A stretch of DNA of 64,000 nucleotides from Perkinsus olseni (lineage: Eukaryota; Perkinsozoa; Perkinsida; Perkinsidae): NCBI GenBank assembly GCA_013115135.1, contig JABANP010000161.1, positions 39,416-103,415 on the forward strand, given 5' to 3'. Of this stretch, positions 1 through 5,977 are shown piece by piece (the first letter of the stretch is position 1; each line of letters opens with the position of its first letter). Under the pieces are notes generated by a model. That model saw only the letters and a program-made list of their open reading frames with translations. It was not told where the DNA came from and did not search any database. Made by a program: the position numbers and the translations under genes.

Positions 1-3000
1 GGCAAAGACGATCAGCCCATTCGTGGTCTCTACGCCGCTGGTGAAGTAATGGGAGGCGTCCACGGTAACAACCGTTTGGGTGGCAATTCTCTTCTGGATT
101 GTGTTGCTTATGGCCGTATCTCTGGTAAGGACTTGATCAGCACTTTCTACCCCTCTGCCCAGCCTGTACCGCTGAAGGATTTGGCCACTGGGAGGACTGA
201 GCCTCGTAAACCAGCGATAGTCGTGGGAGGTGGTCTCGCCGGATTCTCCGCTGCCAACACTATCTTGGAGCGCGGGGGCGAGGTTATCCTTATCGATAAG
301 TCTGCTTTCTGTGGTGGTAATTCCTCCAAGGCTACTTCCGGCATCAATGGCTCTTGCACTAAGACTCCAGAAGAGGCTCGGCGTCAAGGACTCCAACGAG
401 CTTTTCGAGTTCGATTGCATGAAGGGTGGCTCCAAGAACCCTCAACTCATCAAGACTATGGTTGAGGCTTCCGGTCCTTCTGTCGAGTGGTTGATGGACA
501 ACTTCGATCTCGATCTTTCCCTTCTTGCTCGTATGGGTGGTCACTCTGTTGAGCGTACCCATCGTGGTAAGGAGCGTTTCCCTGGTATGACCATCACCTA
601 CGCCGAGATGCAGATGGCCGAGGCTATCTCGAAGGCCTTGCCTGAGAGGTGCCAGATTATGAACAAGGCCCGTGCTACGGAGCTGGTTCAGAATGACGAG
701 GGTGATGTTACTGGAGTTAAGTACGTCAAGGATGGCCAAACTCATACTTTGGAAGGCCCTGTTATCTTGGCTACCGGCGGTTACGGTGCTGATTTCACTA
801 AGGATGGTCTCCTCGCCAAGTATCGTCCCGACTTGCTCAAGTTGTCAACTACCAACGGTGAGCATTGCACTGGTGATGGCATCAAGATGGGTGTTAACGC
901 TGGCGCTGATGTCGTCGATCTTGAGTGGGTACAGGTCCATCCTACTGGCCTCGTGAACCCCAAGGACCCCGACAGCAAGGTTAAGTTCTTGGCTGCTGAG
1001 GCTCTTCGTGGTGTTGGTGGTCTCTTGCTCGATGCTGACGGCCACCGGTTCTCCAATGAGCTCGGTCGTCGTGATTACGTCTCCGACAAGATGTTCCACA
1101 ACAAGGGTCCCTTCCGTCTCGTGTTGAACACTGCTTCCTCTAACGAGATGAAGTGGCATGTTGAGCACTACAAGGGCCGTGGCGTCATGAAGGAGTTCAA
1201 CAGTGCTTACGATCTCGCTAAGGAGATGGGTATTCCTGCTTCTACCTTGGAGCAGACCTTCAAGGACTACAAGGAGGTTGCCAGTAAGCAGGAGGCGAAT
1301 CCCGATGGTGGTGAGTATGATGCTTATCCTACCGGCAAGACCTTCGATAAGTTCGGCAAGAAGTTCTTCAAGAACTACGACTTCCAGATGAACGACCACT
1401 ACAACGTCGCTATTGTCACTCCCCTTGTTCACTACTGTATGGGTGGTCTCAAGATTGATGAGCACGCTCATGTTATCAACAAGAGCGGTAAGCCTATCCG
1501 TGGTCTGTACGCTGCTGGTGAGCTCATGGGAGGTGTTCACGGAAACAATAGGTTGGGTGGTAACTCTCTATTGGATTGCGTCGCCTATGGTCGCATCTCT
1601 GGTAACAATCTCATCGACACCTTCTACCCTCAGTGCCATCGCGTGCCTCTGAAGGACCTTGAGGATGGTCGTACTGAGGCTCGTAAGCGTGTTATTGTTG
1701 TTGGTGGTGGTCTTGCTGGCTTCTCTGCTGCCAATACCGTTCTCGAGCACGGCGGGGAAGTCCTTCTCGTCGATAAGTCGGCCTTCTGTGGTGGCAATTC
1801 ATCGAAGGCTACTTCCGGTATCAACGGTTCGGGTACCAAGACTCAAGCGAGACTTGGCGTTAAGGACTCCAACGAGCAGTTCGAGTTCGATTGCATGAAG
1901 GGTGGCTCCAAGAGCCCTGAGCTCATCAAGACAATGGTTGAGCATTCCGCTCCTTCGGTCGACTGGCTCATGGACACTTTCGGATTGGATCTTTCCCTTC
2001 TTGCTCGTATGGGTGGTCACTCTGTTGAGCGTACCCATCGTGGTAAGGAGCGTTTCCCTGGTATGACCATTACCTATGCCGAGATGCAGATGGCCGAGGC
2101 TATCTCTAAGGCTCATCCTGACAAGTGTCAGATCATTAACAAGGCGAGAGCAACTGAACTTGAGACTGATAACGACGGCAACGTCATCGGTGTCAAGTAC
2201 GAGAAGGACGGCAAGTCTTTCGTCGTTGATGGACCTGTCATCCTCGCCACCGGTGGTTACGGTGCTGATTTCACTAAGGACGGCCTCCTTGCCAAATATC
2301 GTCCCGACTTGCTTAAGTTGTCAACTACCAACGGTGAGCATTGCACTGGTGATGGCATCAAGATGGGTGTTAACGCTGGCGCTGATGTCGTCGATCTTGA
2401 GTGGGTACAGGTCCATCCTACTGGTCTCGTGAACCCCAAGGACCCCGACAGCAAGGTTAAGTTCTTGGCTGCTGAGGCTCTTCGTGGTGTTGGTGGTCTC
2501 TTGCTCGATGCTGATGGCCATCGGTTCTCCAATGAGCTCGGTCGTCGTGATTACGTCTCCGACAAGATGTTCCACAACAAGGGTCCCTTCCGTCTCGTGT
2601 TGAACACTGCATCCTCTAACGAGATGAAGTGGCATGTTGAGCACTACAAGGGCCGTGGCGTCATGAAGGAGTTCAACAGTGCTTACGATCTCGCTAAGGA
2701 GATGGGTATTCCTGCTTCTACCTTGGAGCAGACCTTCAAGGACTACAAGGAGGTTGCCAGTAAGCAGGAGGCGAATCCCGATGGTGGTGAGTATGATGCT
2801 TATCCTACCGGTAAGACCTTCGATAAGTTCGGCAAGAAGTTCTTCAAGAAGTACGACTTCCAGATGGACGACCACTACAACGTCGCTATTGTCACTCCCC
2901 TTGTTCACTACTGTATGGGTGGCCTCAAGATTGATACCGCTGGTCGCGTCATCAGCAAGGAGACGAAGAAGCCAATCCGCGGCCTCTATGCTGCTGGTGA

Positions 3001-5977: not shown

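Follow-up and report, generated by a model that had tools for sequence, protein, structure and literature searches.

Can electrons be carried from a membrane quinol to fumarate by a single polypeptide in which a row of cytochrome b5 domains takes the place of an iron-sulphur subunit? This question is raised by a gene of Perkinsus olseni lying across the start of the window, the 64,000-nucleotide stretch analysed here (positions 39416-103415 of contig JABANP010000161.1, termed C70; genome searched, 61.5 Mb in 968 contigs). The window opens in the middle of the gene. With upstream DNA added, the open frames of the whole gene were located at C70:36452-45389 and contained four fumarate-reductase modules (F), six cytochrome b5 domains (B) and one membrane domain (M). 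Within the window, the order is the tail of F2, then F3, F4, six B and M. A preliminary description of the window had counted at least three F modules, one cut by the window edge; all three were found, and the whole gene raises the count to four. Judged by its domains, the family to which this gene belongs is rather likely to encode a membrane-anchored quinol:fumarate oxidoreductase in one chain. The features of the window copy are listed below in window positions.

1..129, plus strand: C-terminal end of F2 (frame 1; F2 lies at C70:38150-39544 and begins upstream of the window)
214..1615, plus strand: F3, with a frame change near 366 (start of the flavin adenine dinucleotide [FAD]-binding region in frame 1, remainder in frame 2)
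1688..3121, plus strand: F4, intact, of the TIGR01813 flavocytochrome c type
3221..3439, plus strand: cytochrome b5 domain 1
3542..3754, plus strand: cytochrome b5 domain 2 (second sequence type)
3827..4045, plus strand: cytochrome b5 domain 3
4139..4351, plus strand: cytochrome b5 domain 4 (second sequence type)
4433..4651, plus strand: cytochrome b5 domain 5
4811..5029, plus strand: element between b5 domain 5 and M
5096..5971, plus strand: M, an extra hydrophobic helix and a five-helix core related to B-type diheme SdhC/FrdC
5333..5335, plus strand: His 80 of M, helix 1, invariant; proposed distal heme ligand with His 162
5468..5470, plus strand: His 125 of M, helix 2, invariant; proposed proximal heme ligand with His 228
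5579..5581, plus strand: His 162 of M, helix 3, invariant
5777..5779, plus strand: His 228 of M, helix 4
5975..5977, plus strand: stop codon closing the frame

The modules had been described as parts of one polypeptide in one intron-free frame. The single frame was not upheld in the window copy, where frame 1 (1-465) passes to frame 2 (221-5977) inside F3. In contrast, the tandem neighbour of this copy (C70:27030-35393) is a single frame of 2,788 codons with no stop, encoding four F, four B and M, so that all three parts lie in one polypeptide in the intact tandem copy. The probability of such an open frame by chance is about 10^-52 at its own base composition, which rules out chance or artefact for the intact copy. 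The two copies showed 97.3% identity over 8,330 aligned bases, including the 5' flank, and the window copy is longer by one base at about window position 366. The other indels downstream of the start codon (+606, +3, and -15) were all multiples of three; those upstream of it were 4, 1, 7, 1, 3, 1, and 6 bases. The open frames suggest that the gene lacks introns. The window copy may be a recent pseudogene or the product of an assembly error, with the intact frame held by its neighbour.

The family was then defined by a search of the genome with M, which gave 11 matches at nine places, five of which carry F. Besides the two copies on C70, these are C67 A (C67:60102-64916), a single frame of 1,605 codons with two F, three B and M; C67 B (C67:65925-72189), with three F, three B and M, its frame being broken within the first b5; and C745:117929-124276, also with three F, three B and M and with three frame hand-overs. 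One continuous frame was therefore present at two loci, and the order of F, B and M was retained together with the frame in all five. A further sequence, C825, aligns with C745 over 3,156 bases at 97.9% identity and stays open at the point, between the first two F modules, where the frame of C745 breaks; for this reason, some of the frame breaks in the family may be base errors of the assembly. The remaining four places carry b5 domains adjoining M at C67:78634-80866 (minus strand, five B), C75:19555-21907 (plus strand, badly broken), C75:22439-25472 (plus strand, eight B), and C70:20909-22786 (minus strand, three B, one of them weak). No F was found near these four loci among frames of at least 60 codons in the fetched surroundings, and they possibly represent a general quinol/b5 membrane module.

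The family is under purifying selection. For 17 pairs of copies or modules, the ratios of nonsynonymous to synonymous substitution rates (dN/dS) by NG86 lay between 0.00 and 0.29, and the part of F3 behind the break gave 0.04; the estimates with dS > 1 are rough, and YN00 gave none in 12 of the 17. Two additional loci contain F, and the M search found no M at either: C113:125377-127118 (minus strand), where a single F spans two overlapping frames, and C177:31602-33731 (minus strand), F followed by b5 in several frames. By sequence, both genes appear to be split as by introns. Bacterial contamination of the contig was also considered and is not favoured: the exact spliced-leader sequence, which we take to be of the dinoflagellate/Perkinsus type, occurred at 85 places across the genome (reversed control, 0), the b5 arrays are eukaryotic in style, and the related F genes on C113 and C177 look intron-split.

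The flavoprotein repeats proved to be of the fumarate-reductase type, as first described. The NCBIfam flavocytochrome c model TIGR01813 was exceeded with 718.5 bits over two stretches of the 1,918-residue window frame (cut-off, 285.45). For window 1637-3070, the closest solved structure was yeast fumarate reductase 2 (5glg; E 7.7e-86). Shewanella flavocytochrome c3 was also close (E 1e-66), and the match to Wolinella FrdA was much weaker (7e-16). Like yeast Osm1/Frd1 and flavocytochrome c3, the modules keep their FAD-binding and catalytic residues. When aligned with the yeast and Shewanella enzymes, all 16 modules tested, a set without the two C825 modules, had the catalytic residues: the His in VQVHPT, the Glu and Arg in EALRG, the Arg in RRD, the His in HYxMGG, and the Arg in NRLGG. 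This count uses widened patterns; narrower ones missed the Arg motif in three and a His motif in one of the modules of C745. In the PDB yeast chain 6ku6, the conserved Arg of the RRD type is altered relative to wild type. The FAD-binding start was present in 15 of the 16 modules, the window F3 being the sole module without it because of its frame break. Within the intact C70 copy, the tandem F modules were 87-91% identical. On this sequence evidence, the F modules are fumarate-reductase-type flavoproteins with predicted activity. Enzymes of the Osm1/flavocytochrome c type are one-way fumarate reductases, which favours electron flow towards fumarate.

Pfam PF00173 exceeded its cut-off at six stretches of the window frame, and the claim of six b5 domains with both heme histidines was borne out: HPGG and the second heme-His motif were present in 6/6 b5 domains of the window copy, 4/4 of the tandem copy, and 3/3 of C67 A. 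The domains are joined by flexible Ala/Pro-rich linkers, and b5 domain 6 resembles b2-type heme domains, which take electrons from flavin. An in-frame insertion of 606 bases relative to the tandem copy (window 3416-4021, placed at about 3416) amounts to two b5 domains, b5 domain 3 and a neighbouring one, and closely related copies have three, four, or six b5 domains. By these sequence comparisons, the b5 row grows and shrinks by whole units.

The membrane domain carries its four histidines at M-residues 80, 125, 162, and 228, one per helix, in agreement with the preliminary description. In the M alignment, these putative heme ligands were conserved in 8/8 of the P. olseni copies (the ninth, broken, was left out). 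Bacterial relatives were collected by a motif scan that gave at least 120 stretches, of which 80 were listed; 76 of these had an open reading frame (ORF) matching M (E < 1e-3), and four did not. Among the 76 listed matches, the four histidines were kept in 76, 76, 76, and 75, respectively, with one gap at 228, in a biased sample whose columns inside the scan motif are conserved by choice. Fifty-nine of the 76 passed the length and 80%-identity filters, 50 entered the structure alignment, and 26 entered the tree. M matched TIGR02046 sdhC_b558 with 49.6 bits (E 3.6e-13; 51.6 bits for the best of eight places) and on this score is a relative, not a member, of that family.

A structure model built from the eight P. 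olseni rows reached a predicted local distance difference test (pLDDT) score of only 66.8; model 2 was better. M modelled with the five-helix core fold of B-type diheme SdhC/FrdC, and not as a non-heme fold. The solved members of this fold all belong to quinol:fumarate or succinate:quinone enzymes. The core is preceded by an extra hydrophobic helix (M-residues 29-52; Kyte-Doolittle peak, 1.4-2.1), and the SdhC/FrdC matches start at about M-residue 52. In model 2, His 80 and His 162 sit near the far end of helices oriented one way, and His 125 and His 228 near the end of helices oriented the opposite way. Helix position and the match to diheme structures suggest the pairs 80-162 and 125-228; Wolinella FrdC uses equivalent helix pairs for heme ligation. 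M is predicted to bind two b hemes. In a tree of 33 rows (seven P. olseni copies and 26 of the 76 listed bacterial matches), the P. olseni copies clustered as a single group (100/100), whose branch measured 2.66 changes per column, and the tree did not settle the position of this group among the bacterial rows, where a donor of M might be sought.

The iron-sulphur subunit was said to be absent, and this is right for the chain: none of three Cys-cluster patterns of iron-sulphur sites was found in the 2,788-residue intact protein. It is not right for the genome, in which an SdhB exon was found at C445 (E 1.9e-11) and SdhA at C101 (E 7.6e-139). The F-B-M family is therefore an addition to the ordinary succinate dehydrogenase (SDH), not a replacement for it. 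An alternative oxidase is encoded at three places on two contigs. Within the same piece of at most 8 kb, 62/76 of the listed bacterial relatives of M also had a related flavoprotein ORF, and 42/76 had an ORF with an iron-sulphur motif, or 0/76 by a stricter pattern. A separate iron-sulphur protein may act as partner of the chain.

Taken with the known functions of the parts, the domain order is most simply read as a path from quinol through the hemes of M and the b5 domains to FAD and fumarate. The C-terminal M, with two b hemes held between the four helix histidines, would oxidise a membrane quinol. Electrons would pass to the adjoining b5 domain and along three to six b5 hemes on the flexible linkers, and the b5 domains would reduce the FAD of two to four F modules, which would in turn reduce fumarate to succinate. 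The b5 row would stand in for the iron-sulphur subunit of complex II. From the architecture we infer the electron path and its direction, a quinol as donor, the heme content, and a chain that stays uncleaved. The donor would be a low-potential quinone such as rhodoquinol; electron transfer from ubiquinol to fumarate is slightly uphill by the potentials. More tentatively, and with a little less than even confidence, we propose that a eukaryote swapped the iron-sulphur subunit of complex II for an expandable b5 row, uniting this wire with a bacterial-type diheme quinol cytochrome and several fumarate reductases in a single chain encoded in the nucleus, and that b5-M is a general quinol-to-b5 module used with or without F, perhaps outside the mitochondrion, as no targeting peptide was seen in the F-bearing copies.

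Several results weigh against a quinol:fumarate oxidoreductase. The TIGR02046 score of M is under the curated cut-off (49.6 versus 96 bits), and its match to Pfam Sdh_cyt (E 0.11) is under the cut-off as well. A single-sequence search with M gave no PDB chain at E up to 10, and the M alignment gave 131 pattern matches in bacterial and archaeal genomes and 89 in viral contigs, none of which was confirmed. Frame breaks are common in the family: C75 D has several, and one or more occur in each of the window copy, C67 B, C745, and the copies labelled C67 C and C75 E. In the five copies with F, the FAD-binding strand follows 6-10 residues after the start, and inspection by eye showed neither a signal nor a targeting peptide in 5/5 (no predictor was run, and an upstream exon is possible), which would place F and b5 in the cytosol. 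Were the extra helix to cross the membrane, however, b5 and F would come to lie on the face opposite to the one that holds the iron-sulphur subunit in bacteria. Finally, the four b5-M loci without F indicate that M and b5 need not serve fumarate. These loci, together with the cytosolic-like N termini, also fit a different arrangement, in which electrons from NAD(P)H reach the b5 row through a cytosolic b5 reductase, and F (with fumarate) and M (with quinone) alike are sinks of a cytosolic redox-balancing hub that is no quinol oxidase. The b5 domains are acceptors of b5 reductase, and the likeness of b5 domain 6 to heme domains fed by flavin points the same way. However, Pfam detected no b5-reductase domain in the 1,918-residue window frame, the solved relatives of M all work in quinol:fumarate or succinate:quinone enzymes, and each locus that joins F to M keeps both; we consider this arrangement unlikely.

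Some dinoflagellate tandem-repeat proteins are cut from polyproteins, and the chain might likewise be translated whole and then processed to release F enzymes, b5 proteins and a membrane cytochrome separately. The near-identity of the tandem F modules, the Ala/Pro-rich linkers, and the free F and F-b5 genes on C113 and C177 are compatible with such processing. It is nevertheless quite improbable, given that order and frame are kept at all five F-M loci and that b5 stands beside M even where F is missing, as expected if the two act together. A last alternative concerns the window copy and not the whole family: the frame change inside F3 could mark a decaying tandem duplicate, or an assembly error, without a product of its own, so that only the neighbour works. 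Against decay stand the 97.3% identity to the neighbour, the low dN/dS downstream of the break, and coding indels that, the break apart, are all multiples of three. Furthermore, the single-base breaks differ in place among near-identical copies, as base-level assembly errors would. A window copy without a product has little likelihood.

Elsewhere in the window, a sodium/calcium exchanger family protein is encoded at 7802-8995 on the minus strand (Pfam PF01699, E 1e-24), and a 531-codon frame at 31463-33055 on the plus strand has a weak DUF6729 match (E 5.8e-05, under the whole-protein cut-off). Tandem arrays occupy 20123-22200 (194-base unit, 10.7 copies, 97% matches) and 44723-46189 (unit of about 90 bases, about 14.6 copies, with CAA runs).

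We return to the quinol:fumarate oxidoreductase and its relation to known systems. Complex II is taught as separate flavoprotein, iron-sulphur, and anchor subunits, and the eukaryotic complex has a two-subunit, single-heme anchor. In B-type complex II with diheme FrdC/SdhC, such as the quinol:fumarate reductases of Wolinella succinogenes and Desulfovibrio gigas and the SDH of Chloroflexus aurantiacus, the parts are separate, whereas here one polypeptide carries several flavoprotein modules, b5 domains replace the iron-sulphur subunit, the flavoprotein belongs to the soluble Osm1/flavocytochrome c branch rather than to FrdA, and an extra hydrophobic helix precedes the core. Yeast Osm1/Frd1 are single soluble modules, unlike the several modules joined here, and in flavocytochrome c3 the electrons come from a tetraheme c domain at the N terminus, whereas here b5 domains and then a membrane cytochrome lie C-terminal to the flavoprotein. 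The NADH-dependent fumarate reductases of trypanosomatids and the Osm1-b5 fusions of fungi and algae have the same flavoprotein, some with b5; added to it are b5-reductase-like or ApbE-like domains or just one b5 domain, and a diheme membrane anchor is not known in these proteins. Given how such fusions are generally described, the C177 gene looks closer to this type. To our knowledge, neither an F-B-M fusion nor a eukaryotic B-type anchor has been reported. Because the iron-sulphur subunit is missing from the chain, F-B-M is not counted as complex II; it is built of known domains and is predicted to work like a quinol:fumarate reductase outside that complex. Altogether, this protist genome encodes a relative of the one-chain diheme anchor of bacteria, in a chain that holds no iron-sulphur protein; the rows of three, four, and six b5 domains show how electron wires of different lengths could be built, and the F-B-M family offers a testable candidate for the anaerobic respiration of fumarate in these organisms.
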